Source of the DNA: Niabella aurantiaca DSM 17617
Lineage (GTDB): Bacteria > Bacteroidota > Bacteroidia > Chitinophagales > Chitinophagaceae
Direction of reading: 5' to 3'
NCBI RefSeq assembly: GCF_000374125.1
Contig: NZ_KB893649.1
Span: forward strand, 144,759 to 208,758
DNA length: 64,000 nt
Below, one piece after another: positions 21,090-59,562 of this stretch. Position numbers and translations under genes: made by a program. How positions within the stretch are numbered: the stretch's first letter is position 1; the number at the start of each line of letters is the position of its first letter. The notes beneath the pieces are model-generated. The model worked only from the letters and a program-made list of their open reading frames with translations, was not told where the DNA came from and searched no databases.

Positions 21090-21145
21090 CGGGATTCCAG
21101 GAACCAGATCCTCAATTCTGGATTCTGGATTCTCGATTCCCGACT
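21090..21145. repeat. Heptamer-period array between purS and rsmI
   Basis: Eight 7-bp units in perfect register: CGGGATT, CCAGGAA, CCAGATC, CTCAATT, CTGGATT, CTGGATT, CTCGATT, CCCGACT. The left and right halves are roughly inverted copies, so the array can fold. Its last two bases overlap the purS stop codon. Confidence 0.8.
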
Positions 21146-21389
21146 ACAGTACCGTTACCTCAAAATACTCCATTACCGCATTGGCCAGCAGTTGTTTTGC
21201 TGCTTGCTCACCAATACCCTTCGCTTCCTCCGGGGAAGCAGCATCGACCTGCAGCGTGATGTTTTTTCCAACCCGCACATCCGTAACGGCTCCAAGACCC
21301 AGATTGGCCAATCCACCCAGAACGGCTTTTCCCTGCGGGTCCAATAATTCTTTTAACGGCATGATCACCACCTGTACTGTATAACTCAT
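21144..21389 (-). CDS. purS: Phosphoribosylformylglycinamidine synthase subunit PurS
   Basis: 81 residues, the normal PurS length. PurS is the small non-catalytic subunit of the PurSQL complex that makes FGAM in purine synthesis. The sequence VVIMPLKELLDPQGKAV, followed by LANLGLGAVTDVRVGKNI and a C-terminal VMEYFEVTVL, is diagnostic. purQ and purL are not adjacent, so the subunit genes are dispersed here. Confidence 0.93.
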   Translation of the reverse strand: MSYTVQVVIMPLKELLDPQGKAVLGGLANLGLGAVTDVRVGKNITLQVDAASPEEAKGIGEQAAKQLLANAVMEYFEVTVL

Positions 21390-21485
21390 ACGCTTTCTTG
21401 TAAATTTTATTAAATTGCTTTTGCCAGGCCGGGTTCCCTGCCGGTGCAGCTTACACCCGCCCGGATCGCGGCAATATAAAAATTG

Positions 21486-22226
21486 TCACGCCCGGTCCGG
21501 CTTAAAAATCAAAGATACAATAACATAAGCTACAAATACCACGGGCACCGCGATCCATTTAAAAAAGACAGCGGCCAATATCGCAATGAACACCAGTAAT
21601 AACTTGTCTTTATTGGCTTTCAGCGTATATTTTTTAAACTTCAGGCTGATGATGGGCAGGTTGCTCACCATCAGTCCGCTGATGATCAGGATCGCCGGAT
21701 AAACCAGGAGCGGGTGAAAAACAAGCTGGCCGACGGCGGGCGAACCGGTATATGCGATCACGGGTAAGGACGCTACGGTGAGCGCTGCAGCTGGTGTTGG
21801 GATGCCTTTAAAATAATAGTGTTGCTCTTTATCCAGATTAAACTTTGCCAGGCGCCATACGGCAGCGCAGGGAAAAAGAACTGCCGGCAGGTACCACCAG
21901 CCGGTAACCGCGGCATTGTTGGCCCATCCGATCTGCAGCAGGCGATACAGGATCATGCCGGGCGCTACGCCAAAGCTTACCGCATCTGCCAGTGAATCCA
22001 ATTGCGCACCCATCTGCGAGGTGGCTTTGAAAAGCCGGGCCACAAACCCATCCAGGAAATCGACAACAGCAGCGCACAGCAGCAAAAAGCTGCCCACCAG
22101 CATGCCCGTGGTGAGCGATAGCGGGGAGGCCCACAAAAAAGCACTTTCCGGCTCCAGAATAAATTTGATCGCCAGGCAGCCAAACACCAGGTTTAACAGG
22201 GTAAATAAATTGGGGATCTGTTTCAT
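21486..22226 (-). CDS. pssA: CDP-diacylglycerol-serine O-phosphatidyltransferase
   Basis: 246 residues with about seven membrane helices. It condenses CDP-diacylglycerol and L-serine to phosphatidylserine, the precursor of phosphatidylethanolamine. The CDP-alcohol phosphotransferase signature DG-x2-AR-x8-G-x3-D-x3-D is complete across LDGFVARLFK...GAQLDSLAD. The N-terminus MKQIPNLFTLLNLVFG is typical of Bacteroidota PssA. The start lies 5 bp after the stop of the conserved gene at 22232, so the two form an operon. Confidence 0.94.
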   Translation of the reverse strand: MKQIPNLFTLLNLVFGCLAIKFILEPESAFLWASPLSLTTGMLVGSFLLLCAAVVDFLDGFVARLFKATSQMGAQLDSLADAVSFGVAPGMILYRLLQIGWANNAAVTGWWYLPAVLFPCAAVWRLAKFNLDKEQHYYFKGIPTPAAALTVASLPVIAYTGSPAVGQLVFHPLLVYPAILIISGLMVSNLPIISLKFKKYTLKANKDKLLLVFIAILAAVFFKWIAVPVVFVAYVIVSLIFKPDRA

Positions 22227-22231
22227 AATCG

Positions 22232-22795
22232 TCAGGTTAACCGGGCGGCTAACTGGTCGTTTATCTTTTTATATAAATGATACGGCTTGTACACCCGCCA
22301 GTTATTTATTTCCATCAGCTCGATGAACTGGTTCAGTTTGGCCTGCTTAAAATCATACTGGGTTTGCGAAGGCATGTTCAGGCATACGATCCAGCCGTCT
22401 GCATCGCTCAGCTCCTCGTGCAGCTCTTCATAATAGTCCCGGTCGCCGCTGTGAAAATTCAGCACATTCTCCGCGATCAGAATAAATTTATAAATGCCTT
22501 CATTCATAAATACTTCCAGCACATCCCGTTTGAGGGTCATGATGTCATTCTCTACGGCATCATTCCACTCCCCGATGAGCTCGATGACGGCATACCCTTC
22601 CTCATAATCGGCCATCAATACCTTCAGGTAAAGCGTGCGGCTGCCAAAATAATCCCATTGCGGATGAATATAGTAGTTGTACACGGCATCCTTGTATTCA
22701 AACTGGGAGTGCTCGACCCCGTAAAAGGGGGAAAGTTCATCTTCTTCGCTCAGATAAATATGCTGCCAATTGTAATATGGTTCAATATCATGCAC
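22232..22795 (-). CDS. Conserved hypothetical protein upstream of pssA
   Basis: 187 residues, acidic and aromatic-rich, with no signal peptide or membrane helix. Recognisable segments are YYIHPQWDYFGSRTLYLKVL, GYAVIELIGEWNDAVENDI and EGIYKFILIAENVLNFHSGD. No named family. The 5-bp spacing to pssA suggests a shared transcript and perhaps a role tied to membrane lipid synthesis, but nothing in the sequence proves that. Confidence 0.75.
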   Translation of the reverse strand: MHDIEPYYNWQHIYLSEEDELSPFYGVEHSQFEYKDAVYNYYIHPQWDYFGSRTLYLKVLMADYEEGYAVIELIGEWNDAVENDIMTLKRDVLEVFMNEGIYKFILIAENVLNFHSGDRDYYEELHEELSDADGWIVCLNMPSQTQYDFKQAKLNQFIELMEINNWRVYKPYHLYKKINDQLAARLT

Positions 22796-22989
22796 GGTGC
22801 GAATTTACTGTTTTTTAAAAATTTGAATCTGCTGATTTATTATTTTAACTTTATAGGGGAACCGCCGGAGATGAAGGTGTTATCTGCGAACCGTTCCTTT
22901 TAAAATATTCAACCCTGTAAAGCAGACCGGGCGGGTTTTATCCGGTCCATAAAAATCATTTTTCCGGACCATTCGTTAAAACATGCGTT

Positions 22990-24660
22990 ATGAGAACAAG
23001 CCTCGTTTGCGCCCTGGTCAGTTGCCTTTTTTTATGCTGTAAACAAAAGAACCGGCCACCAACGGCGGCCCAGATCGGATCACTGGAGCTTAAAAGAGGA
23101 CCGCTTATTTCCTGCGGTCCGCCCGAACTGCAACTGGGTGCTGCGGTATTTGAGACCGGCTGTTCTACTGTAAAGGACGATTTTAATCTTGGTATTCAAT
23201 TACTGCACTCATTTGAATATGAAGAAGCGGAGAAGGTATTCGCCGGCATCATTGACAAAGAGCCCGGTTGCGCCATGGGTTACTGGGGTATTGCCATGTC
23301 GAACTTTCATCCGCTATGGACCGCCCCAACTCCCGAAGAACTGAAAAAAGGAGCCGCAGCCATCGGTCTGGCACGCTCGCTCCCTGCTTCCGGCAGGGAA
23401 AAAGAATACATCGCTGCTATCGGGGCCTATTACGATCATTGGGAAACCGCCGGCCACCGCACCCGTGCGCTGCGCTTTGAGCACGCTATGAAAAAGCTTG
23501 CCGGTCAGTACCCGCAGGATAAGGAAGCAAGGATCTTTTATGCCCTTGCCCTTGATGCGGCGGCGGATCCTGCCGACAAAACCTTTCGCCGGCAACTGCA
23601 GGCCGCGCAGCTCCTGCAGGCTCTCTATCCCGGCCAGCCGGAACACCCGGGTATTGTGCATTACCTCATCCATACCTATGATTACCCCGAGCTGGCACAA
23701 CGGGGGCTGGCCGCTGCACGGAAATATGCATCGATCGCACCTTCTTCCGCCCACGCCCTTCACATGCCCTCACATATCTTTATACGGCTGGGACTTTGGG
23801 ATGAAGCCATCCGCTCCAATCTCGCCTGTATTGCCGCTGCCCTGTGCTATGCTGAAGCAACCAATATGAAGGGCCACTGGGATGAAGAGCTGCACGGACT
23901 GGATTATCTTGTTTACGGATACCTGCAAAAAGGACAGAATGATTCCGCCCGGAGCAAACTCGAATACCTCAGGCATATTACCGAAGTATATCCGGTAAAC
24001 ACCAAAGCGGCTTATTCTTTTGCCGCCATACCCGCCCGCTATGTGCTGGAAAATAAACAATGGGAAGCGGCCGCCGCACTCAAGCCCGCGTTTGAAAATA
24101 TCAACTGGAACCGTTTTCCCTGGCAGGCCGCCATTACCCGTTTTACCCGCGCTTTGGGCCATGCACGTACAAGACGGCCAGGACCGGCCCGGGAAGAGCT
24201 GAAAGAACTGAACCGGCTGCAGGCCCTCCTTATTAAACAAAAAGACACTTACGCGGCCAACCAGGTAGCCATCCAGGCAAAAGCCGCCGAAGCATGGATC
24301 CTGTTTATAGAGGGGAAAAACGGGACAGCGCGGCCGTTGATGCAGCTTGCTGCAGATATGGAGGATCGTACCGGGAAACATCCGGTTACACCCGGAGAAG
24401 TTTTACCGGCCCGCGAGTTATTCGGCGATATGCTTCTGGAAATGAACCAGCCGGAAGCTGCACTGGCGGCATACGAAACTGCCTTAACCACCCATCCCGG
24501 GCGGTTCAATGCGCTCTACGGTGCCGGTCAGGCAGCCATCAGATCGGGAAAAACAGAAAAGGCAGCCGCCTACTTTCAACAGCTGTTGGCAATAACGGAT
24601 AGCGGCCGGTCGGCCCGGCCGGAAATAACCCGGGTCAAAAAATACCTGAAAACCTTATGA
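22990..24660 (+). CDS. TPR-repeat lipoprotein
   Basis: 556 residues. The N-terminus MRTSLVCALVSCLFLCC is a lipoprotein signal. TPR-like helical pairs begin near residue 70 (FEYEEAEKVFAGIIDKEPGC, AMGYWGIAMSNFHPLW) and continue through HALHMPSHIFIRLGLWDEAI to a canonical pair near the C-terminus (NQPEAALAAYETALTTHPGR). TPR proteins act as scaffolds; the partner is unknown. It is convergent with thrC, with 25 bp between the stops. Confidence 0.88.
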   Translation: MRTSLVCALVSCLFLCCKQKNRPPTAAQIGSLELKRGPLISCGPPELQLGAAVFETGCSTVKDDFNLGIQLLHSFEYEEAEKVFAGIIDKEPGCAMGYWGIAMSNFHPLWTAPTPEELKKGAAAIGLARSLPASGREKEYIAAIGAYYDHWETAGHRTRALRFEHAMKKLAGQYPQDKEARIFYALALDAAADPADKTFRRQLQAAQLLQALYPGQPEHPGIVHYLIHTYDYPELAQRGLAAARKYASIAPSSAHALHMPSHIFIRLGLWDEAIRSNLACIAAALCYAEATNMKGHWDEELHGLDYLVYGYLQKGQNDSARSKLEYLRHITEVYPVNTKAAYSFAAIPARYVLENKQWEAAAALKPAFENINWNRFPWQAAITRFTRALGHARTRRPGPAREELKELNRLQALLIKQKDTYAANQVAIQAKAAEAWILFIEGKNGTARPLMQLAADMEDRTGKHPVTPGEVLPARELFGDMLLEMNQPEAALAAYETALTTHPGRFNALYGAGQAAIRSGKTEKAAAYFQQLLAITDSGRSARPEITRVKKYLKTL

Positions 24661-24685
24661 ACGCGTACCTCACTGCCACAAACGC

Positions 24686-25984
24686 TTAGCCGTTCGTGAG
24701 GTATTCTTTGAACGCCGCATAGTCCGGCTGTAGCTCCACGGCCTGCTTCGGCTGCAGCATCAGCTCCTGCAATATTTCCGGAATTACAACATCGGCACCA
24801 GTAGCCTGTTTTACAGCATCCGGAAACTTTACGGGATGTGCCGTTTCGAGGATCAGTCCTTTTTCTCCCGGGTGTCCGTTCAGGTACTGTTCCAGCGCCC
24901 GGTACGCCACGGCCCCATGCGGGTCGAGCGTATAACCGGTTTCCTGAAAAACCGTTTGAATGGTTGCGATCGTATCGGCATCCGATATGCTGGCGGCCGA
25001 CAGGTTGTCTTTTAATTTCAGGAATTGCTGATCAAACAATTCCATAATGCGGACAAAATTGCTGGGATCGCCCACGTCCATGGCGTTGGACAATGTGGCT
25101 ACTGCTTTTTTGGGCTTCCAGTCTTCTGTTTGCAAAAATGCCGGCACCACATCATTGGCATTACAGGCCGCAATAAAATGGCCCAGTGGTAAGCCGCCCG
25201 CTTTTGCGAGGAGCCCTGCACAGATATTTCCGAAATTGCCGCTGGGTACCGTAACCACAGGCGCCAGGGTCTTGTCCGCCCATTGCTTGTAGGCGAAGAA
25301 ATAATAAAACTGCTGCGGCAGCCAGCGTGCTACGTTGATGGAATTGGCAGAGGTGAGGAACCGCTTCGCCCGGATGTCTTCATCGGTAAAAGCCTGTTTT
25401 ACCAGGCGCTGGCAGTCATCAAAGCTGCCGGCCACTTCCAGCGCGGTAATGTTCTTCCCCAGCGCTGTCAGCTGTTTTTCCTGCACCGGGCTTACCCTGT
25501 CTTTGGGGTACAGGATCACTACCTGAACACCCTCTACATCATAAAATCCACTTGCCACCGCGCCTCCCGTGTCTCCGGAAGTGGCCACCAGCACGGTCAC
25601 CTCTTTTTGCTCACCGCTCAAAAAATAACCCAGACAACGGCTCATAAAACGGGCGCCCACATCTTTGAACGCCAGGGTGGGACCATGAAATAATTCGAGC
25701 GATGCAATCCTGTCCGTAACCGGTTTTAACGGGAACGGGAAATTCACCGTTTGGGAAACGATCTCAAAAAGGGTTTCTTCGGGGATAGATGTTCCGACAT
25801 AGGGCCGGATAACGCGGAATGCAATTTCTTCCTCAGAAAGGGATCCGATATTTTTTAACAGGTCAGCCTCCGCGGCGGGCAGCACTTCGGGGAAGTATAA
25901 CCCCCTATCCGGTGCCTGTCCCTGTATGGCGGCCTCTTTAAACGTTACCTTCGGCGACTGATGATTTAAACTATAGTATTGCAT
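24686..25984 (-). CDS. thrC: Threonine synthase
   Basis: 432 residues. It converts O-phosphohomoserine to threonine with PLP. The PLP lysine is Lys107 in HGPTLAFKDVGARF, followed by VLVATSGDTGGAVASGF (phosphate-binding loop) and TVPSGNFGNICAGLLAKAGG. The gene is last in a thrA-thrB-thrC order on the minus strand. Its ATG lies only 5 bp after a heptamer array (25989-26030), so its translation initiation region is made of repeat DNA. Confidence 0.96.
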   Translation of the reverse strand: MQYYSLNHQSPKVTFKEAAIQGQAPDRGLYFPEVLPAAEADLLKNIGSLSEEEIAFRVIRPYVGTSIPEETLFEIVSQTVNFPFPLKPVTDRIASLELFHGPTLAFKDVGARFMSRCLGYFLSGEQKEVTVLVATSGDTGGAVASGFYDVEGVQVVILYPKDRVSPVQEKQLTALGKNITALEVAGSFDDCQRLVKQAFTDEDIRAKRFLTSANSINVARWLPQQFYYFFAYKQWADKTLAPVVTVPSGNFGNICAGLLAKAGGLPLGHFIAACNANDVVPAFLQTEDWKPKKAVATLSNAMDVGDPSNFVRIMELFDQQFLKLKDNLSAASISDADTIATIQTVFQETGYTLDPHGAVAYRALEQYLNGHPGEKGLILETAHPVKFPDAVKQATGADVVIPEILQELMLQPKQAVELQPDYAAFKEYLTNG

Positions 25985-25988
25985 GCGA

Positions 25989-26030
25989 TTTTAGACGTTA
26001 GATTTTAGACCTTAGATATTAGACCTTAGA
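25989..26030. repeat. Heptamer array next to the thrC start
   Basis: Six 7-bp units in exact register, consensus NNTTAGA: TTTTAGA, CGTTAGA, TTTTAGA, CCTTAGA, TATTAGA, CCTTAGA. It ends 4 bases from the thrC start codon. Confidence 0.85.
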
Positions 26031-26084
26031 CGTCCCGGCCCTGACAGATCCGGGTGTACTTTGAGGTTCGGTATCCGCTCCCCT

Positions 26085-26112
26085 ATTCACCATTGACTAT
26101 TCACCATTGACT
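26085..26112. repeat. Heptamer array overlapping the thrB 3' end
   Basis: Four 7-bp units: ATTCACC, ATTGACT, ATTCACC, ATTGACT (a 14-bp unit twice). The thrB stop (26097-26099) and its last codons lie inside the repeat, so the final residues VVNGE are repeat-encoded. Confidence 0.8.
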
Positions 26113-27023
26113 ACCTCCACCCCTTTATTGTTGATGGTTGTTACATAAACATAGTTCTCAATACCGATGCGGTCATAGATGCTGCTCATGATACCCGCCA
26201 CGTTCTTTGCCACCGCTTCCGTTTCACTCAGCATAAAAATAGACGGCCCGGATCCGGATATGCCTCCACCCAGGGCGCCGGCCTCCCGGCACCGGCTCTT
26301 TACTTCGTCAAACCCGGGAATCAGGATGCTTCTTACCGGCTCGATGATCACATCCTCCAGCGAGCGGCTGATCAGCGTTTTGTCGTTCCGCATAAAGCCA
26401 GCCACCAGGCCGGCTATATTTCCCCATTGTTTGATCGCATCCTTCAGCAACACTTTTTGTTTCAGGATCTGGCGGGCGTCGGCAGTGCGTACCTCTATCT
26501 GCGGGTGCACCACCGTAACAAAAAGATCGGGGGCCGCCAGCGGAACGATGTCGATCGGGTGGATCGACCGGATGAGGGTGACCCCTCCCAAAATACAGGG
26601 GGTAATATTGTCTGCATGTTTTACACCACTGGCCAGCTTTTCGCCGATCATCGCCAGCTGTACCAGCTCATCCGTGGTAAACCGGTTACCGAGCAACAGG
26701 TTGGCCCCCACGGCCGCACCTGCAGCGCTGGCCGCGCTGGATCCTAACCCGCTGCCGGGTTTGATCCGTTTTTGTATGGTTACCTCAAACCCGATATTGC
26801 CGCCGGCCTTTTCGATGGCGGCCAGCAATACCACCCCTGCTACATTCTGTTCCGGATCCGTTGGCAAACCAAAATGATCCCTGTTCCGGATGATGACGCG
26901 CGGCTCATCCAGCAAACGGAATTCCATGATATCATACGGATCGTTCAGGGCAAGGCCCAGGATATCAAATCCGCAGACCAGGTTGGCCACAGTGCCCGGG
27001 GATTTTATTTTTACTTGTTTCAT
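26097..27023 (-). CDS. thrB: Homoserine kinase
   Basis: 308 residues from ATG at 27021-27023; the open frame runs 37 codons further up but that part is unlike the family. A GHMP kinase that phosphorylates homoserine. Motifs: PGTVANLVCGFDILGLAL, the ATP-binding KPGSGLGSSAASAAGAAVG and the C-terminal GGGISGSGPSIFML. It sits 120 bp after thrA and upstream of thrC, in the threonine pathway order. Its extreme C-terminus overlaps a tandem repeat. Confidence 0.95.
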   Translation of the reverse strand: MKQVKIKSPGTVANLVCGFDILGLALNDPYDIMEFRLLDEPRVIIRNRDHFGLPTDPEQNVAGVVLLAAIEKAGGNIGFEVTIQKRIKPGSGLGSSAASAAGAAVGANLLLGNRFTTDELVQLAMIGEKLASGVKHADNITPCILGGVTLIRSIHPIDIVPLAAPDLFVTVVHPQIEVRTADARQILKQKVLLKDAIKQWGNIAGLVAGFMRNDKTLISRSLEDVIIEPVRSILIPGFDEVKSRCREAGALGGGISGSGPSIFMLSETEAVAKNVAGIMSSIYDRIGIENYVYVTTINNKGVEVVNGE

Positions 27024-27143
27024 CTGAGAGGTAGTAAACGATTGATTTGTGAGATAATTGTGATGCGCTATGCCGCAATAAGTATAAGCGAACGAGGACC
27101 AGGGCTGCCGGAAACGTCCGTTGCCTCCGATCATCTTTGCTTC

Positions 27144-29600
27144 TTATTCATTTACCGCGCGCATAATATCGGCAAATACGCCGCTGGCGGTTACATCGGC
27201 GCCGGCGCCGGCGCCTTTCACCACAAGGGGCTGCTCCGGGTAGCGGGCCGTATAGAACAGCACCACGTTGTCTTTGCCATATAAATGGTAGAGGTCATTC
27301 TCCGGCCGTATATGCCGCAGTCCGACGGATGCTTTCCCGTCGTTGAACGTGGCCACAAATTTCAGTTTGCAATTCTCCGCCAATGCAGCATCCAGCAAAC
27401 CTTTAAAATGCGCTTCCTCTTTTTCCATCGCCTTATAAAAAGCCTCTACAGAACCTTCCATGCAGGAAGGGGGCATAAAGGAGTCGTTCTGAATATCCTC
27501 CATTTCCATTTCAAACCCGGATTCCCTTGCCAGGATCAGTATCTTGCGCATCACATCCACCCCGCTCAGATCCAAACGGGGATCCGGCTCGGTATATCCT
27601 TCCTCCTGTGCCTGTTTTACCACATCGGCAAATGGCCGGGATCCGTCATAATGATTAAATACAAAATTGAGGGTACCACTCAGCACCGCTTCAATGCGGC
27701 GGATCTCATCACCGCTCCGGCGCAGGTCGTTCAGCGTGGCGATCACCGGCAGGGCGGCTCCTACATTGGTTTCAAAAAGGAATTTGGCGTTGAACACATG
27801 CGCCAGCTCTTTTAATTTTTTATATTCGGGAAACGGGGAAGCCGCGGCGATCTTATTGCAGGCCACCACCGAGATGCTTTTCTGCAGCATCTTATCATAA
27901 ACCTTCGCCACGTCTTTATTGGCCGTTATATCCACAAAAATAGAGTTCCGCATATTCCGCCGGATGATCTCATTGGCAAACTCGGAAATGGACGCAGATT
28001 CGCCGCCCGCCAGGGACTCCTTCCAGCCGCTTAGGGAAATGCCTCTTTCCTTAAAGATCATTTTACGGCTGTTGCTGATCCCTACCACACTTACATTTAA
28101 TTTCAAATGCTGGATCAGGAAGGAGTGCTGCTGTTTTAATTGTTCCATCAGCTTGGCTCCCACATTCCCCAGTCCTACAATAAACAGATTGAGCTGTTTT
28201 TGTATGGTTTCGAAAAATTCTTCGTGCAATACATTAATGGCTTTGCCTACATCATCCGTAGCGATCACCGTGCTGATGTTCTTTTCAGAAGAGCCCTGCG
28301 CGATCGCGCGGATATTGATCCCGTTCCGGCCCAAAGCGCCAAACATCCTTCCGCTGACCCCGGGAAGGCTTTTCATATTTTCCCCTACCAGCGCCACGAT
28401 CGAAAGATGGGTTTCCGCTTTCAGCGGCTCTACTTTTTTGAGCGCGATCTCATCCGCAAAGGTCTTATCCACGATCCTCTTTGCGGCCTGCAGGTGTTTC
28501 TGGTCGATGGCTACACAGATCGAGTGCTCGGAAGAGCTTTGAGTGATCAGCACTACGTTGATCCGCTCTTTGCTCAATGCCTCAAACAACCGCTTTGAAA
28601 ACCCGGGAATGCCGATCATCCCGCTTCCCTCCAGGCTCAGAAGGGCTATATTGTTCACGCTGGAGATACCGCTTACGATATGCTCCCGTACGACTTTTGT
28701 ATCTTTTATCTTTCCACCGACCACCGTTCCCGGCATCTCAGGAGCGAACGTATTCTTTACATACAGCGGTATGTTCTTGCTCATTACCGGCTGAATGGTG
28801 GGCGGGTACAATACCTTGGCGCCAAAGTGCGACAGTTCCATTGCCTCACTGTAAGAAATGCGTTCGATCACCTTGGCATTGGCCGCCAGCCGCGGGTCTG
28901 CCGTCATCATCCCGTTCACGTCTTTCCAAACCTGCAGCGATTCTGCATCAATGGCCGCAGCGATCAGGGAAGCGGTATAGTCGGAGCCGCCCCGGCCCAG
29001 CGTTGTAGTGATCCCCTGCTCGTCGGAACCGATAAAACCCGGGATGACAAATACGTTGCTTTTATTTTCCTTAAAATACTTCCGGATCTCCTTTTCAGTT
29101 GTCTCCAGATGCACTTCCGCATGTGTATAATCGCTGTTTGTAAAAATAAACTGGCGCGCATCTTTCCATACCACAAACAGTCCCAAATGTTTGAAAGCCT
29201 CCGCAATGATCTGTGAAGAAAGCCATTCGCCGTAAGCGGCCAGCCGGTCCTGGTTCTTCGGGGTGATCTCCCGCAATAAGAAAATCCCGTTGCAGATCTC
29301 TTCTATTTCATTGATCGCCTTTTTAACCAGGCTCAGTAAGGAGCTTTGCGAAGCGATCGGGATCAGTGCCTTGATGGTTTCAAAATGACGCTGCTCGATC
29401 ACTGTGACCTTTGACCGGAAATCTTCATTGCCATCCGCGGCCTCTTTGCCCGATGTCAATAAAAGATCTGTGACACCGCCTAAAGCGGAAACAATAACAA
29501 CAATTGAATTCTTCTTTGCAGCATTGTCTACAATAGCCGCAACTTTTTTTATATTCTCAGCACTGGCTACAGATGAGCCGCCAAACTTAAAGACCTGCAT
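27144..29600 (-). CDS. thrA: Bifunctional aspartokinase / homoserine dehydrogenase I
   Basis: 818 residues, normal for ThrA. The aspartokinase domain begins VFKFGGSSVASAENI and includes LGRGGSDYTASLIAAAIDAE; two ACT regulatory domains follow (about 310-460, for example IALLSLEGSGMIG and ALVGENMKSLPGVSGRMF). Homoserine dehydrogenase starts near 465 with the NAD(P) motif FIVGLGNVGAKLM and carries EAVLSGTLNFVFNHYDGSRP and YTEPDPRLDLSGVDVMRK. It catalyses the first and third steps from aspartate and is usually inhibited by threonine through the ACT domains. It is preceded by a leader peptide and attenuator. Confidence 0.96.
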   Translation of the reverse strand: MQVFKFGGSSVASAENIKKVAAIVDNAAKKNSIVVIVSALGGVTDLLLTSGKEAADGNEDFRSKVTVIEQRHFETIKALIPIASQSSLLSLVKKAINEIEEICNGIFLLREITPKNQDRLAAYGEWLSSQIIAEAFKHLGLFVVWKDARQFIFTNSDYTHAEVHLETTEKEIRKYFKENKSNVFVIPGFIGSDEQGITTTLGRGGSDYTASLIAAAIDAESLQVWKDVNGMMTADPRLAANAKVIERISYSEAMELSHFGAKVLYPPTIQPVMSKNIPLYVKNTFAPEMPGTVVGGKIKDTKVVREHIVSGISSVNNIALLSLEGSGMIGIPGFSKRLFEALSKERINVVLITQSSSEHSICVAIDQKHLQAAKRIVDKTFADEIALKKVEPLKAETHLSIVALVGENMKSLPGVSGRMFGALGRNGINIRAIAQGSSEKNISTVIATDDVGKAINVLHEEFFETIQKQLNLFIVGLGNVGAKLMEQLKQQHSFLIQHLKLNVSVVGISNSRKMIFKERGISLSGWKESLAGGESASISEFANEIIRRNMRNSIFVDITANKDVAKVYDKMLQKSISVVACNKIAAASPFPEYKKLKELAHVFNAKFLFETNVGAALPVIATLNDLRRSGDEIRRIEAVLSGTLNFVFNHYDGSRPFADVVKQAQEEGYTEPDPRLDLSGVDVMRKILILARESGFEMEMEDIQNDSFMPPSCMEGSVEAFYKAMEKEEAHFKGLLDAALAENCKLKFVATFNDGKASVGLRHIRPENDLYHLYGKDNVVLFYTARYPEQPLVVKGAGAGADVTASGVFADIMRAVNE

Positions 29601-29643
29601 GAACTTGATTTAGTAATAAAAGAAAAGGGAATAAACCCGGGGT

Positions 29644-29663
29644 AAAAAACGGCAGAATGCCCG
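29644..29663 (-). terminator. Putative thr attenuator terminator
   Basis: On the minus strand a short GC-rich hairpin (29650-29663, 5 bp with one bulged G, 3-nt loop) is followed directly by six T (29644-29649). It lies between the leader peptide stop (29690) and the thrA start (29600), the expected place for an attenuator. A second hairpin (29683-29689 with 29695-29701, 7 bp) overlaps the leader stop codon. Confidence 0.55.
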
Positions 29664-29689
29664 ATGGATGATATAGCAGCGTACAACCC

Positions 29690-29770
29690 TCAAGGGGTTG
29701 TGGTAATAGTGGTAGCAGTTTCGTTACCGAAAGCTAAAGAAGGTTGGATATTTTGAAAACAGTATTGCAT
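29690..29770 (-). CDS. thrL: thr operon leader peptide
   Basis: A 26-residue ORF from ATG at 29768-29770 ending GNETATTITTTP. Seven of its last nine residues before the final Pro are Thr or Ile, as in enterobacterial ThrL, whose run of Thr/Ile codons makes the ribosome stall when charged tRNA is scarce. It is followed by two hairpins and a T-run before thrA. The frame is also open upstream, but the promoter box at 29787-29794 leaves this ATG as the first on the transcript. The symbol is given by analogy of position and composition. Confidence 0.7.
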   Translation of the reverse strand: MQYCFQNIQPSLAFGNETATTITTTP

Positions 29771-29786
29771 TTTATTAGATACCTGC

Positions 29787-31011: not shown

Positions 31012-31030
31012 AAACAGCTTATACATCTGA

Positions 31031-34131: not shown

Positions 34132-34132
34132 T

Positions 34133-34534: not shown

Positions 34535-34545
34535 AACAAAGCTAC

Positions 34546-38951: not shown

Positions 38952-38955
38952 AAGC

Positions 38956-39056
38956 GTTTGAGGTTTCACGTTTGAGATCGGGTCCCGGCTTTGGCGCCCG
39001 ATGTTGCTGCTCTGAATCCGGAGCGAACCTGAAACATGGAACGTTAAACCCTGAAA
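38956..39056. repeat. Inverted pair of heptamer arrays
   Basis: Left arm 38956-38976: GTTTGAG, GTTTCAC, GTTTGAG. Right arm 39028-39056: CCTGAAA, CATGGAA, CGTTAAA, CCCTGAAA, which on the other strand reads as similar GTTTNAN units. The pair fills the gap between the convergent DUF488 and glycosidase genes and could form a long imperfect hairpin, so it may act as a terminator. Confidence 0.65.
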
Positions 39057-39057
39057 T

Positions 39058-51650: not shown

Positions 51651-51953
51651 TACCGTTCAGTAGTTTATATACTTTCCGTATATCGTTTTTCAATAAAATG
51701 TTATTTAGAGCTCGGGCAGCCCTATACTTTTCTATAAACGACGAAAGAGGCCGTTTCGCAACAAAAGAGTTGTATTTATTTGTTAAAAAAAATCAAAGAG
51801 TCATTAGCAGTCGGTGTCTTCTATTGTTGTTCATTAGGCATCCGGATGTCAACAGGGCCGTTTCACTAACAGGGTCATCTAACACAGCATTTGAAACGCC
51901 TTTAATTTGGATTAGTTATACAGAACATAAAAAAACCTAAAGTGCGTGTCCTT
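51651..51953. other. Gene-free, AT-rich gap between glycosyltransferase genes
   Basis: About 300 bp with no credible gene, hairpin or promoter seen. An open frame on the plus strand (51698-51940) has no family resemblance and is antisense to the cluster. Confidence 0.6.
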
Positions 51954-53114: not shown

Positions 53115-53162
53115 TCTTCTTTCCGGGAGCTAAGTCATACAGGGAATTAAAAAAAGATACGT

Positions 53163-53963
53163 TTATGCCTCCATATACCCGTTGGTCCGGTAGCTGTATT
53201 TGTACTGCACGGTTTCCCGGTATATTTTTTCATTGGTGCCCAGGTTGGCCCGGGAATTAAAAGTGTGAAAGATATGATATCCAACCGCAGCAAGTTTTAC
53301 TTTCTTCTTTTTGATGCCGAGGTTGATCAACCGCTCACCCAGCTCGGAATCCTCCCTGCCCCAGCCCTCAAATCCGCTGTAATAGCCGTTCACTTTCACA
53401 TAATCATCTTTCCAGAATGCCAGGTTACATCCTTTTATATTGTGTGATTTACGGGGATCCACAAAAAAGAAACCCGAGAAAAGAGGTACGCGCAATGCAT
53501 TAAAACGGTTGGCAAGTCCCGGCATAAAGGAATGCAGCCCTTCAATATTCTTGGTACGCAACAGGTCATGACTTCGCTGTTCGTTGATCAGCGTCCTGCT
53601 TCCCTGTACAAAATACCCCTTCCGGGCGGCCTTCATGTGATCTGCAATGAACTCGCGGTGCATGACAATATCCCCATCAATTTCAATGATATAGTCCGAC
53701 TCGATTTCTTTTATCGCTTTATTCAGGATCAGGCTTTTACGGAAACCGCGGTCTTCGTGATACACGTGCTTTACCGGTATCCCGTGGATCTTTTTAAAGT
53801 TTTCGATGCACCACGCTGTATGCGCGTCATCGCCATCCTCCGCAATAATGATCTCATCCGGCCTCCGGCTCTGGTACAGTACACTTTTTAATACCAGTTG
53901 CAGGGCCTCCGGCCATTTGTAGGTGGAAATCATCAATGCTACCGTAAAAGGAGTTTTTTTCAT
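53163..53963 (-). CDS. Glycosyltransferase family 2 (chondroitin-synthase-like)
   Basis: 266 residues. GT-A fold: VALMISTYKWPEALQLVLKS, RRPDEIIIAEDGDD, HEDRGFRKSLILNKAIKEIE, the metal-binding Asp pair in YIIEIDGDIVMHREFI, and the C-terminal GCNLAFWKDDYVKVNGY, FEGWGREDSELGERLI. This is the KfoC/chondroitin polymerase-like branch of GT2. Base composition is closer to the chromosome average than the three genes before it. Confidence 0.9.
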   Translation of the reverse strand: MKKTPFTVALMISTYKWPEALQLVLKSVLYQSRRPDEIIIAEDGDDAHTAWCIENFKKIHGIPVKHVYHEDRGFRKSLILNKAIKEIESDYIIEIDGDIVMHREFIADHMKAARKGYFVQGSRTLINEQRSHDLLRTKNIEGLHSFMPGLANRFNALRVPLFSGFFFVDPRKSHNIKGCNLAFWKDDYVKVNGYYSGFEGWGREDSELGERLINLGIKKKKVKLAAVGYHIFHTFNSRANLGTNEKIYRETVQYKYSYRTNGYMEA

Positions 53964-54307
53964 ATATATTCTGTCTTTCTGCTTTTTGGTTTAGACCGGC
54001 CATCCGGTACGATCATACCCTCCAATAACAACGTAAAAAACCGCTGCATTGCAACATTTTTGTCAGTTTGATTTATTCCGGATGCCAAATTTATCAATTC
54101 TTTTACAACTTTGCGGATCGTATCATCACCCAAAGACAAAGGGGGAGATCCATCTTGTTCAGCCTGCAACGCGCTCCTCTGTGCTCCTGTTTAGCTTGCA
54201 AAGATAGTTTTTTTACTGCATCAACGCGCAGAAATCAATCCGCCAGGCCCCGAAAGAAGCCACTGATTTATCAAACTATTATTAAATTTGCCCCTTATTT
54301 AGGAACT
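53964..54307. other. Divergent intergenic region, GT2 gene and cupin gene
   Basis: No convincing gene. A minus frame (53960-54169) overlaps the GT2 start by 4 bp but has only a TTG start. A TAAATTTG box at 54283-54290, 17 nt before the ATG at 54308, is a likely promoter for the cupin gene. Confidence 0.55.
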
Positions 54308-55174
54308 ATGCAATTGATAGCTTTAGATAAATTCGATCACCTTGGTCCGGATGATTTTAAAAAAAATTACTATCAAAAGAATAAACCTGTTGTCATCCGC
54401 GATCTTGCCCGTCAGTGGCCCGCCTTCTCCCGGTGGAACTGGGATTACTTCATCAATATCGTAGGCGACAGGGAAGTGGGCGTTTACAACAACATCAAGA
54501 GCGATTCCTACACCCCCATCAACACGGCAGACGCCTATATGAAATTTGGAGCATACCTGGAGATGGTAAAAAAAGGCCCGGTGGAACTGCGGATCTTTCT
54601 TTTTAACATTTTTCAGCATGCCCCCCAGATCGTTTCCGATTTTACATGGCCGGATGATTACATGAAAGGATTTGTAAAAAAATTCCCCATGCTGTTCGTC
54701 GGCGGCCAGGGGTCGGTTACTCACATGCACTTCGACATCGACCTCAGCCATATCCTGCACACACAATTCATGGGAAGAAAAAGGGTGCTGCTCTTCCCTT
54801 TTGAGGAGCAGCACAAACTATACCGGAAACCCTGGGAGGTTTTGAGCCTGGCCAATTTTGCCCGGTATCACGAACAATTCGACTATGAAAAGTTTCCCGC
54901 CACAAAGGCCGCCCGGGGGTATGAGGTGATCCTGGAGCATGGAGACACCCTGTTCATGCCGGCCGGGTACTGGCATCATATGGAATACATTGATGCAGGA
55001 TTTGCCATGAGTCTCAGAGCATTACAAAGCGGGATCACCGGCAAGCTGAAAGGCGCCTGGAACCTGTTTGGCATGCGCAATATTGATACCCTGATGAAGA
55101 GGACCGCACCCAAATGGTGGTATGACCGGAAGGTGAAGCAATTGTATGCAGATGCCGAGCAAACAATGAGGTGA
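54308..55174 (+). CDS. JmjC-like cupin protein
   Basis: 288 residues from ATG at 54308-54310; the frame is open far upstream but the family match begins here. The fold is cupin_8/JmjC: NKPVVIRDLARQWPAFSRWN, the iron motif H141-F-D143 in GSVTHMHFDIDLSHIL, and the distal His in MPAGYWHHMEYID. Such proteins are 2-oxoglutarate/Fe(II) oxygenases that hydroxylate proteins or small molecules. The substrate is unknown. It may be linked to the polysaccharide cluster only by position. Confidence 0.87.
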   Translation: MQLIALDKFDHLGPDDFKKNYYQKNKPVVIRDLARQWPAFSRWNWDYFINIVGDREVGVYNNIKSDSYTPINTADAYMKFGAYLEMVKKGPVELRIFLFNIFQHAPQIVSDFTWPDDYMKGFVKKFPMLFVGGQGSVTHMHFDIDLSHILHTQFMGRKRVLLFPFEEQHKLYRKPWEVLSLANFARYHEQFDYEKFPATKAARGYEVILEHGDTLFMPAGYWHHMEYIDAGFAMSLRALQSGITGKLKGAWNLFGMRNIDTLMKRTAPKWWYDRKVKQLYADAEQTMR

Positions 55175-55246
55175 TGTGCTAATCTGAAAATGCCTTGCTA
55201 CCCGGAAAACCGGCAGCGCTCATTTTCAAATTCATCAATTACCGGA

Positions 55247-55984
55247 TTATTCCTCCGCGTTCCAAATATTCCAGCTGAGTTCAGCCTGTCCTACCAGCAT
55301 CTCATACCCGTTTTTTATAAGCGCCCCCCGGTCCTTCCCTTCTTTTAAAAAAGCCGTTAACGGGGGGTTATATACCAGGTCATACAGGTAATGCCGCGAA
55401 GTGATCAATGTATAGGGCAGGTTGGGCTTGCCTTCGATGTTGGGATAGCTTCCCAATGGTGTGGTATTGATAATTAAAGAATAAGCTTCCATGATCCCGG
55501 CATCCAGGTCTGCATATCCCCATTCATTTTCACCGGGAGTCCTGGAGACATACCGGTAAGAGACGCCCAGCTTCTCCAGGGTATAGCGTACCGCCCGCGC
55601 CGCGCCGCCGGTGCCCAGGATCAATGCCTGCTGATGATGTGGCTGCAGTTGCTGAAGCAAGGTGGTTTCAAAGGCCGCAGCATCCGTATTATACCCCTTC
55701 AACCGGCCGTTGGAGATCCGGATACAATTGCAGGCGCCGATGGACTCCGCCTCCCCGTCCAGCTCATGAAGAAAAGCCATAACCTCCTGTTTGTAAGGGA
55801 TGGTCACATTGAACCCGGCCAGTTCCGGATATTGCTGCAGCAGCTCCGGCAGCTGCCGGATGGAAGGGATTTCAAAAGCCTCATACCGGCAATCTCCGAT
55901 CCCTTCTTTTTCAAATTTTTCAGTAAAATAGCGTTTTGAAAAAGACTGACTTAGCGGGAACCCGATCAAACCATACAGACGCAT
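55247..55984 (-). CDS. aroE: Shikimate dehydrogenase
   Basis: 245 residues, slightly shorter than E. coli AroE. It reduces 3-dehydroshikimate with NADPH. Motifs: YGLIGFPLSQSFSKRYFTEK, GFNVTIPYKQEVMAFL (catalytic Lys), NTDAAAFETTL (Asp) and ALILGTGGAARAVRYTLEKL (NADP-binding). Its start overlaps the stop of the upstream comA-like gene by one base (55984), so the two are translationally linked. Confidence 0.94.
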   Translation of the reverse strand: MRLYGLIGFPLSQSFSKRYFTEKFEKEGIGDCRYEAFEIPSIRQLPELLQQYPELAGFNVTIPYKQEVMAFLHELDGEAESIGACNCIRISNGRLKGYNTDAAAFETTLLQQLQPHHQQALILGTGGAARAVRYTLEKLGVSYRYVSRTPGENEWGYADLDAGIMEAYSLIINTTPLGSYPNIEGKPNLPYTLITSRHYLYDLVYNPPLTAFLKEGKDRGALIKNGYEMLVGQAELSWNIWNAEE

Positions 55985-56757
55985 CAGAATGCGGTTTTAT
56001 TATCCAGGTACAAACCAAATGAATCGCCCCGCAACCCGATGCGCATGGCTTCCAGCGCAATCAGTTCATTGGGAGGGATATTGCCGAGGTTCACATTGCA
56101 CCCGATCAGCTCCAGAAAATAAAGCTGCTGGGCCTTTTGGGGTGCCTCCCATATGATCTTCTCAGAAGGGATCTGCGTCAGGATCTCCTGCACCAGCCCC
56201 TCGCGCACCTCGCCGGTTCCGCGGTAAATACCCACGTTTCCTGCCTCCCGGGCCTCAGCGATCACATAAGAAGAGCCCGCTTCCAGCTCGGCTTTCATCA
56301 ACTCGATCCACTTATACGGCGGAATGATATGTGTGGCGTCTTTACTTCCCACCTCGCTTAAAACGGTTCCGTGCTGCGTCAGCTTTTCAATATAGCCACA
56401 CTTCTCGGCATGGGGAATGCTGATAGAGCCGTCACTTACCTCCATATAATCGATCCCAAAATGCTTGCAGATCGCAATATAATCGTCCACCTGATTCCTT
56501 ACCAGGTAGGCTTCAAAAAGGGTGCCGCCAAAATAAACGGGAACATCATAGGAGCGATAGACTTCGATCTTCTTTTCCAGGTTGGGAGTTACGACCGCAG
56601 TACCAAATCCCAATTTCAATACATCTACATGAGGATGAGACACACTCATAAAACTCTTTGCCTCATCAATACTCAACCCCTTATCCATTACCATGGTAAT
56701 GCCGTTTGTACGTGGACGAACGTACCGTTCCGGCATTTGCGTCAAATTAAACTTCAT
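55984..56757 (-). CDS. Phosphosulfolactate synthase (ComA family)
   Basis: 257 residues. ComA adds sulfite to phosphoenolpyruvate to make phosphosulfolactate. Segments match the family: PRTNGITMVMDKGLS, VDVLKLGFGTAVVTPNLEKK, PVYFGGTLFEAYLVRNQVDD, YMEVSDGSISIPHAEK, VLSEVGSKDA and VIAEAREAGNVGIYRGTGEV. In archaea the pathway leads to coenzyme M; in Bacteroidota a route through sulfopyruvate to cysteate and sulfonolipids is more likely. It shares a junction base with aroE and lies 2.9 kb from a CFAT-like acyltransferase. Confidence 0.9.
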   Translation of the reverse strand: MKFNLTQMPERYVRPRTNGITMVMDKGLSIDEAKSFMSVSHPHVDVLKLGFGTAVVTPNLEKKIEVYRSYDVPVYFGGTLFEAYLVRNQVDDYIAICKHFGIDYMEVSDGSISIPHAEKCGYIEKLTQHGTVLSEVGSKDATHIIPPYKWIELMKAELEAGSSYVIAEAREAGNVGIYRGTGEVREGLVQEILTQIPSEKIIWEAPQKAQQLYFLELIGCNVNLGNIPPNELIALEAMRIGLRGDSFGLYLDNKTAF

Positions 56758-56916
56758 TCGGTATCAGTTATTAATCGTCGCAAAAGTAACTATTTTGCTT
56801 AAGTTTATGCCACCCCCCTCCCGTTACTTGCAGAAAAAGCATTGAGAATGAATAACCAATTGATAAAACCAACTTAAATTATCAGACGATTTTCCGTTTA
56901 TAGAAGGGCATTTACT

Positions 56917-56924
56917 TATTTTTG
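56917..56924 (+). promoter_or_regulatory. TATTTTTG box before the PBP1A gene
   Basis: A perfect TAnnTTTG box 37 nt before the ATG at 56962; no clear TTG at -33. Confidence 0.4.
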
Positions 56925-56961
56925 GTGCCAGATTTTATTATAAACACTTTATCCTTTATAT

Positions 56962-59406
56962 ATGAAGAAATCAGTTCGGATTTTCTGGCGGATTTTTTTC
57001 CTTTTATTTGGCCTGGGCATTTTAACCGTTCTCCTGGCCAACTGGGGCGTATTTGGAAGAATGCCTTCGCTGGCGGAACTGGAGAACCCTGCCATCACCC
57101 AGGCTTCAGAGGTGCTGGCGGCAGATGGAACACTGATGGGCAAATATTACCTCCCCAATGGCAACCGTTCAATCATTAAATACAGGGATATTTCTCCCAA
57201 CGTAATCAATGCCCTGATCGCTACAGAAGATAAACGTTTTTATGATCATGCCGGCATCGACCTGAAGGGAACGCTGCGCGCTATCTTCCTGCTGGGAAAA
57301 GAAGGCGGGGGCAGCACCATTACCCAGCAGCTGGCCCTGGCCCTGTTTGCCCAGCGTGCCAGCAACAAAGCGGTAAGGGTGATCCAGAAATTAAAGGAAT
57401 GGATCATTTCAGTAAAGCTGGAACGCAATTTTACCAAAGAAGAGATCATTGCCCTTTATCTGAACGCGGTTCCTTTCAGTGATAACGTATACGGCATTCG
57501 TAACGCCTCCAGGACCTGGTTTAAGAAAGAGCCGGATCGTCTGAGTGTGGAAGAAGCGGCATTGCTGGTGGGTATGATCAACGGCCCGGGCATCTATAAC
57601 CCGAGAAGGAACCCCAAGCTGGCCATCGACCGCAGGAACACGGTGATCTCCCGTATGGTGGAGAACGGGAATCTGTCTGCAGCCGAAGGCGAACGATTAA
57701 TGGCCACCCCGATGACGCTGAACTATAAAAAGATGGACGAAAATACGGGGTACGCGCCCTACTTCCGGGACGTGCTGCGCGATGAGTTAAAGAGCATCCT
57801 CAAAGACCCGGGTCTGAAAAAGCCGGACGGCTCTTCTTACAGTCTCTATGAAGACGGGCTGAAGATCTATACCACCATCAACCCCCAGATGCAGCAGTAT
57901 GCGGAAGAGGCGGTCTATATGCAGGTACCCAACCTGCAGCGCGCACTGGTACGCCAGTCCTTCATAAAGAACGGATCTGTCTGGAAAGGCCATGAAAATG
58001 TGCTCCTCCGTGCAATGAAGGAAAGTGACCGCTGGAGAAGTATGGCCGATGACGGATTCTCCGATAAAGAGATCAAAGCCAGTTTTTACAAAAAAGTGCC
58101 CATGCACATTTTTGCCTGGAACGCCCATAAAGGGCGCGATACGGTAATGACCCCCTACGATTCCATTAAATACCACCGGACCATGGTGCAATCTGCCTTT
58201 ATGGTCATGGACCCTGTAACCGGTGAGGTAAAAGCCTGGGTGGGTGGCATCGATTTTAAGACCTATAAATACGATCACGTAAACCTCCGTACAAAGCGGC
58301 AGGTAGGGTCCACCATCAAACCCCTGCTGTATGCCCAGGCCATCGAAGAGCGGGGCATGACGCCCGAGTCCATGGTGCAGGACGTGCAGCAGAACTTTGG
58401 CAACGGGCAGCTGGTACCGGCAACCGGCAGAACCTGTACCGGCAGGACCATGACCATGGCCTCGGCGCTGGCCTGGTCCCGCAACTGTGCCACCGCTTAT
58501 ATTATGAAGCAGGTAGGCGCGGCCCAGTTTGCCAACTTCCTGCAGCGCATCAATATTCCCACGAAGGTAAAACCCTTCCCCTCCATTGCCCTGGGTGCCT
58601 GTGAACTTTCGCTTTTTGAAATGCTTTGGGGCTACTCTATTTTCGGAGGACGGGGCTTTTCTACCAAACCTTATTTTATCAGCCGAATTGAAGACCGCAA
58701 TGGCAATGTGATCAAACGCTTTGACTATAGTGTGAACCGGAAGGAAGCCATCAGCGAAGCAACGGCCTATACCATGAGCCGTATGATGCAGGGCATTGTT
58801 GACAAGGGAACCGCTGCAGGCCTGCGTGCCCGCCTGGGCGCCGCCGAAATGGCCGGCAAAACCGGTACCACCAATGACAACAGTGATGCCTGGTTCATGG
58901 GCTTTACCCCCCAGCTGCTGGGTGGCGTATGGGTAGGGTGCGACGACCGCTTTATCCGCAACGAGGGCCGCGGAGGCTTCGGCGGCCACGCGGCGCGGCC
59001 GATATGGGAAGCCTTCTTTAAAAAGGTATATGCCGATAAATCATTGGGCATTAACAGGGATGAAAAGTTCCCCGAACCGGCCACTATGGATAACGAGATG
59101 CTAAGCGCTGACCCTTCCCAATATGTGACTTCGGAGAACCCGGAACCAACGGCCGAAGGCGAAGATGCAGGGTTGGGTACCGAGCAGGATTACATGCAAA
59201 ATACCAATGAATACATCGGACCGGAATCCAAGCCGGTCACCGATGAGAGCAAAGGCCCCGCTAAGGATACCACCAAAAAAGAACCTCCCAAAGCGGTTCA
59301 GGGAAAACCCATCGGGTCTGCCGACCAGCCAAAAAAGAAAAAAGGATTCCTGGGAGGCCTCTTCAAGAAAAAAGATAAAAATAAAAAACAGGACCAGGAG
59401 AAATAG
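56962..59406 (+). CDS. Penicillin-binding protein 1A (GT51 transglycosylase plus transpeptidase)
   Basis: 814 residues. One membrane helix (about 9-28), then a GT51 domain with catalytic Glu89 in ATEDKRFYDHAGIDLKG and GGSTITQQLALALF. The transpeptidase domain carries S450-T-I-K453 (VGSTIKPLLYAQAIE), S506-R-N508 (AWSRNCATAYI) and K633-T-G (AGKTGTTNDNSDAWF). It polymerises and crosslinks peptidoglycan in the periplasm. The last 100 residues are a charged, low-complexity tail rich in Lys, Pro and Glu, common in Bacteroidota PBP1A. It is a single gene. Confidence 0.96.
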   Translation: MKKSVRIFWRIFFLLFGLGILTVLLANWGVFGRMPSLAELENPAITQASEVLAADGTLMGKYYLPNGNRSIIKYRDISPNVINALIATEDKRFYDHAGIDLKGTLRAIFLLGKEGGGSTITQQLALALFAQRASNKAVRVIQKLKEWIISVKLERNFTKEEIIALYLNAVPFSDNVYGIRNASRTWFKKEPDRLSVEEAALLVGMINGPGIYNPRRNPKLAIDRRNTVISRMVENGNLSAAEGERLMATPMTLNYKKMDENTGYAPYFRDVLRDELKSILKDPGLKKPDGSSYSLYEDGLKIYTTINPQMQQYAEEAVYMQVPNLQRALVRQSFIKNGSVWKGHENVLLRAMKESDRWRSMADDGFSDKEIKASFYKKVPMHIFAWNAHKGRDTVMTPYDSIKYHRTMVQSAFMVMDPVTGEVKAWVGGIDFKTYKYDHVNLRTKRQVGSTIKPLLYAQAIEERGMTPESMVQDVQQNFGNGQLVPATGRTCTGRTMTMASALAWSRNCATAYIMKQVGAAQFANFLQRINIPTKVKPFPSIALGACELSLFEMLWGYSIFGGRGFSTKPYFISRIEDRNGNVIKRFDYSVNRKEAISEATAYTMSRMMQGIVDKGTAAGLRARLGAAEMAGKTGTTNDNSDAWFMGFTPQLLGGVWVGCDDRFIRNEGRGGFGGHAARPIWEAFFKKVYADKSLGINRDEKFPEPATMDNEMLSADPSQYVTSENPEPTAEGEDAGLGTEQDYMQNTNEYIGPESKPVTDESKGPAKDTTKKEPPKAVQGKPIGSADQPKKKKGFLGGLFKKKDKNKKQDQEK

Positions 59407-59506
59407 CAGTCAGTGATCAGCCGTGTTATGCCGAAAAGTGTCGGTGTTTCTTTAAAATTTAAGGTCCCGGGTTAAATCCATTTAATACGCAGTGATCATC
59501 TGGTAA

Positions 59507-59562
59507 CTGATAGCAGAAGGCTGATGGCTGGCCGCTGACAACTGACAGCTAACAGCCGGTAG
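59507..59562. repeat. Heptamer array, consensus CTGACAG
   Basis: Eight 7-bp units in register: CTGATAG, CAGAAGG, CTGATGG, CTGGCCG, CTGACAA, CTGACAG, CTAACAG, CCGGTAG. It lies between the PBP1A and acyltransferase genes, 22 bp before a TATATTTG promoter box. Confidence 0.8.

Follow-up and report, generated by a model that had tools for sequence, protein, structure and literature searches.

Degenerate heptad and octad repeats against gene ends in Niabella: related units, inverted arms and gap versions that differ between close species

The intergenic DNA of Niabella aurantiaca DSM 17617 carries degenerate tandem arrays with a 7-bp step, several of which lie in the stretch analysed here (the window; 64,000 nucleotides of contig NZ_KB893649.1, positions 144,759 to 208,758). 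The feature is real and family-wide, and we infer its mechanism. Period 7 dominates, the units are related between loci, arrays at start codons obey an orientation rule, arms are inverted, and versions of the same gap differ between species; one near-copy between neighbouring gaps and one case of both arms differing by 7 bp were also found. In our judgment the chances are evenly balanced that the arrays make up a dispersed class of intergenic repeat, with degenerate 7-bp, less often 8-bp, tandem units set against gene ends. Often the layout is a pair of inverted blocks, the first following the upstream stop codon and the second just ahead of the downstream start codon. We give about even weight, too, to the view that these are tolerated, self-perpetuating repeats, altered by whole units and swapped like cassettes. 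Heptamer repeats have already been described in Bacteroidota (PMC4679880), as have inverted heptamer pairs in Xanthomonas (PMC4692102); the related but drifting units, the choice between 7 and 8 bp, the inverted arms and the cassette-like differences between close species are new traits.

An earlier model-made note on the window (the original prediction) had staked its case on period 7 being commoner than 6 or 8 in intergenic DNA, and this is borne out. In a 1.264-Mb sample of the source genome (G000; the window lies on its contig C25), 172 kb of noncoding DNA held 27 segments of period 7 at a score of at least 12, as well as 9 of period 8, 4 of period 11, 3 of period 10, 1 of period 9 and none of periods 5 and 6; shuffled noncoding DNA gave 0.3 segments at period 7, and in coding DNA the leading periods were multiples of three. 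Gene calls here are those of a custom hexamer-model finder rather than a standard program. Across 2.66 Mb of seven congeneric genomes, the 391 kb of noncoding DNA yielded, at a score of at least 11, 132 segments of period 7, 30 of period 8 and 7 of period 6, with 7 leading in each genome, and the noncoding autocorrelation peaks at lags 7, 14 and 21; labels such as G001 or G012 stand for congeneric genomes. Period 8 is nevertheless a real second class, represented by these 30 segments and by 19 of 52 periodic gaps in a ribosomal-protein operon (below), and the claim of an exclusive period 7 falls with it. Beyond these genomes, 80 loci around thrC from other organisms, grouped by taxon from record titles, gave segments of periods 6/7/8 in numbers of 1/46/24 (57 other Chitinophagales loci), 1/13/0 (nine Weeksellaceae), 0/3/2 (ten Hymenobacter) and 1/9/0 (two Niabella); two loci from other phyla had none, in just 1.5 kb of noncoding DNA, which makes them uninformative. 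A 150-kb sample of Escherichia coli K-12 with 16.4 kb of noncoding DNA contained no period-7 segment, where the genus rate predicts about 5.5.

In the window, the five arrays originally listed fall into four gaps, i.e., purS-rsmI, thrB-thrC, that between two convergent unnamed genes, and that between a PBP1A-family gene and a serine-palmitoyltransferase-like gene. All are intergenic or overlap a gene end, as had been stated and as is read directly from the sequence, one of them crossing the thrB stop codon. With 500 dinucleotide shuffles of an array's own gap as the reference for its lag-7 score, four of the five are clear, and the pair between the convergent genes is weak as tandem DNA (38956-38976, score 6, p = 0.02; 39028-39056, score 3.5). 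The inverted relation predicted for that pair did hold: its left arm, of GTTTSAN-like heptads 3' of the upstream stop codon, occupies 38953-38985 on the plus strand and its right arm 39020-39052 on the minus strand (inverted score 13, p = 0.003), and the RNA fold has z scores of -4.33 and -4.05 in two runs. The span 21090-21145, described as one array, scores 17 at lag 7, a value reached by 0 of 500 shuffles; the tandem part lies at 21115-21143 (minus strand, score 17), 3' of the purS stop codon, and its unit reads GAATCSA in the sense direction of purS (ATTCTGG on the plus strand); 21090-21108 (minus strand) proved to pair with 21124-21142 as an inverted repeat (inverted score 11, p = 0.013 from 300 shuffles). 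The purS-rsmI fold z is only -1.17. This gap is also array-bearing in G001, G009 and G012, where copy number or unit differs, the differences in copy number being whole units.

The array before thrC (25991-26031, minus strand; GTCTAAN on the thrC sense strand, TTAGACN on the plus strand) stops 6 nt before the start codon, and the span first given for it, 25989-26030, scores 13 at lag 7 (0 of 500 shuffles). Across the stop codon of thrB, whose open reading frame is 26097-27134 on the minus strand, runs an ATTSACY array with a 14-bp super-unit (26083-26113, plus strand; two 14-bp copies, 100% identical); the originally listed 26085-26112 scores 7.5 at lag 7 and 17 at lag 14 (0 of 500 shuffles of 26060-26113). 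This array has no inverted partner in the thrB-thrC gap (p = 0.997), and the thr-gap array is unstructured (fold z +1.25). The fifth array, degenerate CTGAYAR units at 59500-59556 (plus strand, lag-7 score 12.5; score 12 and 0 of 500 shuffles for 59507-59562), has a candidate partner at 59409-59421 in the gap 59407-59624 that is not significant (p = 0.34). A significant inverted repeat is thus present in two of the four window gaps, purS-rsmI and 38952-39057. Rfam gave no match within the 64-kb window.

The original prediction took the units of different loci to be unrelated; across the genus this fails. The seven congeneric genomes hold 145 arrays in 1,715 gaps, and unit statistics were computed for the 92 arrays with a score of at least 11 outside the syntenic stretches L169-L188. 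With rotation and strand left free, 57 locus pairs have the same unit, as compared with 10.7 in shuffles, and a circular consensus, ATTTNAG (CTNAAAT on the other strand), scores 4.56 against 3.62 ± 0.07 for permuted units and 3.66 ± 0.11 for random noncoding 7-mers. When each genome in turn is left out, the consensus is clear for G000, G009 and G014 and weaker for G010 and G007; extended to other genera, it loses significance (p = 0.21 in Chitinophagales, 0.67 in Weeksellaceae and 0.35 in Hymenobacter). A TTAGACN-type pattern with at most two mismatches occurs at 54 places in G000 (reversed control, 7). Eight loci with TTAGAC arrays align in the array portion alone, their flanks being unlike; the exceptions are overlapping pieces of a single locus and its internal inverted 65-bp repeat. 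A perfect TCTCAAA triple is present in 11 of 17 genomes (control, 0). Perfect TCTCAAA arrays of about 15 and about 16 units were seen at G002:C2:335290-335394 and G009:C5:2786884-2786995, and such very long perfect arrays suggest recent expansion. One contig terminates within a perfect AGATTTG array (G000:C1:1-46; L091 1-46); longer arrays may therefore break the assembly or be missing from it.

The excess of period 7 appears in long arrays and not in isolated pairs. Exact two-copy 7-bp repeats number 34 when alone (24.5 ± 4.7 expected) and 129 inside longer arrays (6.8 expected), and the corresponding 8-bp repeats 15 (5.0) and 16 (2.0). Lone 7-bp pairs being near chance, there is no sign of steady 7-bp duplication from random seeds, and the preference for 7 shows in the expansion or upkeep of arrays rather than in their birth. 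Together with the shared units, this speaks against the common mechanism first proposed, one that builds period-7 DNA from different seeds. The genus thus separates repeat birth, which is not 7-biased here, from growth and upkeep, which are.

Near start codons, position and strand are not random either. An array end lies within 12 bp of a start codon in 34 of 103 cases (null 21.8 ± 4.0, p = 0.003), and among the 62 array ends within 60 nt before a start, outside the syntenic stretches, 19 fall at 5-8 nt, 3 at 0-4 nt and 6 at 9-12 nt. The sense-strand GC skew is -0.318 for the 79 start-side arrays and +0.111 for the 66 stop-side arrays (p = 7e-7); array-free gaps have -0.114 near starts and +0.053 near stops. 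For orientation, 29 of 108 arrays were ambiguous and left unclassified. Start-side arrays (within 20 bp) have CTNAAAT on the sense strand in 25 of 28 classifiable cases (background 0.55, p = 1e-4), and stop-side arrays face that way in 9 of 22. A promoter reading, with a TTTG box every 7 bp, was set aside because the sense strand at starts carries CAAA, not TTTG. Insulation by stop codons in all frames was likewise rejected, the stop density being 0.0791 on the sense and 0.0816 on the antisense strand (p = 0.82).

The S10-spc ribosomal-protein operon provides a natural experiment, in which the content of orthologous gaps of an essential operon ranges among close relatives from a heptad or an octad pair to nothing, with near-identical genes on either side. 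Twenty gaps were surveyed in seven species, and 138 of the 140 gap cells were readable; ten gene names were confirmed by NCBIfam and the rest assigned from translated starts and gene order, and the start codons of rplP, rplV and rpsH were reset by eye. Periodic cells number 52 of the 138 (33 of period 7, 19 of period 8) and are spread over 12 gaps, all of which differ among species in presence or period; arrays are gained, lost and altered between relatives. In the rplD-rplW gap G000 has four perfect TCTCAAA units (31 bp), G005, G001 and G009 have 29 non-repetitive bases, and G012, G010 and G007 have an inverted octad element of 109-143 bp. At rpsC-rplP, four species have an octad pair and the other three a heptad pair. 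At rplF-rplR four species have octads, G005 and G001 heptads, and G000 heptads below threshold; the right flank CCTGGCAGYATCAGGG is kept across versions, and each arm is 7 bp longer in G001 than in G000. The rplP-rpmC gap occurs in filled and short versions (96-127 bp vs 14 bp). Of the 20 gaps, eight are never periodic, five of them at least 0.92 identical and the other three 0.61, 0.69 and 0.73.

These versions can differ entirely between sister species. G009 and G012 are sisters in the tree (97.5% identity over 5,439 coding bases), and their identity is 0.19 in the rplD-rplW gap and 0.38 in the rpsC-rplP gap, with 0.966-0.988 in the adjoining genes. G005 and G001 are 0.97 identical in the rpsC-rplP gap and 0.909 in its flanking genes; since around rplC-rplD G005 is nearer to the group of G001 than it is to G000, its sister in the tree, a longer recombination tract accounts for part of this shared version. 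The whole rpsC-rplP element of G010 is 91% identical over 127 bp to the rplP-rpmC element of G007. The octad arm is about 36 bp long, and its matches across gaps are mostly 83-92% identical; as CATTNTCAAATTNTCAAATT it occurs in 32 of 117 genomes of the family (none with the reversed sequence as control), with up to 66 matches in one genome, and in 5 of 148 genomes across the phylum, namely G000 and four of its class. Between the variable element and the rplR start, a small hairpin, CCCTGGCAGYATCAGGG, is conserved (L211, L237 and L252-L256, rplF-rplR gap), and one of its pairs is altered on both sides among four species.

At a threshold of at least 14, an inverted repeat is present in 46 of the 732 codirectional gaps (expected, 3.2), in 16 of the 131 convergent ones (0.2) and in 2 of the 155 divergent ones (3.4); those of convergent gaps include ordinary terminators, and some of the inverted repeats listed are a GC-rich stem followed by a T-run, of the intrinsic-terminator type. 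The arms of the 114 inverted repeats of at least 12 show the heptad step themselves, with identities of 0.364, 0.358, 0.346 and 0.325 at lags 7, 14, 21 and 28, compared with 0.287 at lag 6 and 0.25-0.31 at most other lags. Codirectional gaps hold an inverted repeat in 17 of 69 cases with an array and in 56 of 663 without (p = 1.5e-4); convergent gaps show no such array effect (3 of 11 and 29 of 120). Complementarity in codirectional gaps without a called array exceeds that of swapped pairs (8 of 472 vs 2.1 at a threshold of at least 12). Folds were compared for up to 60 gaps per class, of which 11 convergent and 9 divergent ones had arrays. Among divergent gaps, the 9 with an array had the better folds (p = 0.013). 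RNA structure found no support as a general purpose, z scores being alike with and without arrays in codirectional and convergent gaps. Overall, the tests of RNA structure and of arm co-evolution gave mixed results, and the interpretation first offered is partly supported.

If the arrays are tolerated, self-perpetuating repeats, they would grow and shrink by whole units through slippage or unequal exchange, and such whole-unit change would preserve the period even as the unit drifts by mutation. Short recombination or template switching, aided by the similarity of the arms, would replace entire elements or exchange them among gaps and among species. Selection would mostly tolerate arrays between genes, sparing the last few nucleotides before a start codon and favouring the G-poor strand there. 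The G-poor strand and the free last stretch may be explained by the phylum using no Shine-Dalgarno sequence; in Flavobacterium johnsoniae, translation starts free of Shine-Dalgarno sequences are tuned by upstream adenines and low structure (PMC6847099), and the arrays are a pointer to a tie with translation starts in such a phylum. Several results weigh against the tolerated-repeat reading. Slippage is deduced rather than seen directly, and the near-copy of G010 and G007 could be plain duplication. Array ends near stop codons are not above the null (27 of 103 vs 21.9, p = 0.12), and 18 of 262 divergent gaps have arrays. The lower identity of array gaps than of never-periodic gaps (0.62 vs 0.85) is confounded by length. 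Array pairs on opposite strands of one gap are many, yet they are no more complementary than swapped pairs (4 of 61 vs 3.05; 4 of 60 vs 2.8), with no sign of locus-specific co-evolution of arms outside the ribosomal operon, and array-bearing codirectional gaps fold no better than others (z -1.17 vs -1.09, p = 0.91).

Simple replication slippage that inherently favours 7 because of the polymerase footprint, acting on any seed with nothing selected, strikes us as rather improbable. Heptanucleotides are reported to be the leading long simple repeats in many bacteria, with a polymerase account of them (Mrazek 2007, as given in PMC4679880 and PMC4692102), and the present arrays agree with that class in unit length, above-chance length and mostly noncoding position; why heptamers dominate is a question on which this genus bears. 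Mismatches between neighbouring units also resemble ordinary decay, with transitions enriched 1.6-1.7 fold; an inversion-type mutation, sought through C/G transversions, did not stand out (ratio 1.08). However, lone 7-bp duplications lack a clear excess, units are common to loci beyond chance, the strand rule at starts exceeds composition, an octad class exists, and the E. coli sample had none in 16 kb of noncoding DNA. A growth threshold could produce the near-chance counts, and slippage from random seeds is weakened only in part. Equally tentative is the idea that what is inherited is a layout rather than a sequence: a pair of inverted arrays with a constant step of 7 or 8 bp, whose arms change together, and which expand by whole steps and are exchanged between gaps and species independently of the flanking genes. 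If true, it would imply copying tied to a 7-8-nt step, for example hairpin-templated repair of arms or template switching from gap to gap.

That the arrays are functional RNA or DNA elements, the start-side ones binding S1, a cold-shock protein (Csp) or another translation factor and the inverted pairs forming intercistronic hairpins for stability or termination, we regard as unlikely. It would account for the position and strand rule near starts, and for inverted repeats being found where a gap follows a stop codon and not where it is divergent; in the S10-spc operon, an inverted repeat with p of at most 0.05 is present in 29 of 34 periodic cells of at least 45 bp and in 6 of 27 non-periodic cells (five species), and the mean fold z is -2.77 for periodic and -1.59 for non-periodic gap cells. 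Binding of S1, Csp or CsrA has been suggested for TAACTGA arrays (PMC4679880). Against this, one gap may carry an array, an octad hairpin or neither among close relatives, array gaps lack a general structural signal, the thr-gap array is unstructured, and covariation is nearly absent (0 of 34 and 2 of 35 pairs in two alignments). Mobile miniature elements of the miniature inverted-repeat transposable element (MITE) or repetitive extragenic palindrome (REP) type, with a fixed end sequence and moved by an encoded enzyme, are a far less probable source. The recognisable octad arm of about 36 bp in 32 of 117 family genomes and the filled and short versions of rplP-rpmC would fit them, but the heptad elements have no common end sequence, and inspection of the one gap rplP-rpmC by eye gave no target-site duplication.

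REP, bacterial interspersed mosaic element (BIME) and MITE families are dispersed intergenic inverted repeats with sequence common to their copies, whereas the heptad elements have period and layout in common more than sequence; a shared terminal sequence is present in the 8-bp class, and the TTAGAC arrays of eight loci match within the array only. The short tandemly repeated repetitive (STRR) sequences of cyanobacteria are likewise short tandem heptamers, and one of their units, CAACAGT, scores low (0.61) on the genus consensus. Closer likenesses are found in PMC4679880, which describes TAACTGA arrays in Beggiatoaceae, Cyanobacteria and five Bacteroidetes, none of them in Chitinophagaceae, facing forward before starts; the original statement that such repeats had no description in this group was thus too strong. 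Those repeats are, like ours, intergenic 7-bp tandem units that mostly point the same way ahead of start codons (here, 25 of the 28 classifiable arrays on the start side), with shorter repeat-free gaps in relatives and other heptamers beside them; unlike that single unit, those of Niabella are numerous and related, arms come in inverted pairs, and versions within one operon are swapped between congeners. Against the genus consensus TAACTGA reaches 4.0, where our arrays average 4.55 and random 7-mers 1.46; the five window arrays all depart from pure TAACTGA, that at 59500 coming nearest. Dispersed heptamers are also described for Xanthomonas (GGGNATC) and Nostoc (GGGGAYT) in PMC4692102. The Xanthomonas repeats form inverted pairs (70-75 places per genome), in gaps that vary in length and sequence between two species, but there the unit is a single G-rich, quadruplex-capable one, conserved between species (PMC4692102); the Niabella arrays lack G-tracts of at least three per unit, and start-side arrays are G-poor. 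Our searches of the open-licence literature turned up no description of such arrays from Niabella or Chitinophagaceae.

Other repeats were noted alongside the heptads. The window contains a degenerate 11-bp array, GGATACAGMAA, at 10300-10409 (plus strand), whose unit recurs at L092 17238-17280, and adjoining it, in a region called noncoding, a degenerate 10-bp array with the unit TCAGAAGGGA at 10425-10497; both are longer than any of the five arrays, and the description of a period that is always 7 was in this respect selective. A palindrome of the form CCCGATAGCTATCGGGA occurs in rpsQ-rplN gaps (L256, L211) and rpsE-rpmD gaps (L255, L254), the gaps differing between species, and is a REP-like dispersed repeat separate from the heptads. 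In Hymenobacter, thrB-thrC gaps (L026, L033, L055, L061, L063, L067, L073) often contain long near-perfect inverted repeats, e.g., GTAGAGACGCGA...TCGCGTCTCTAC.

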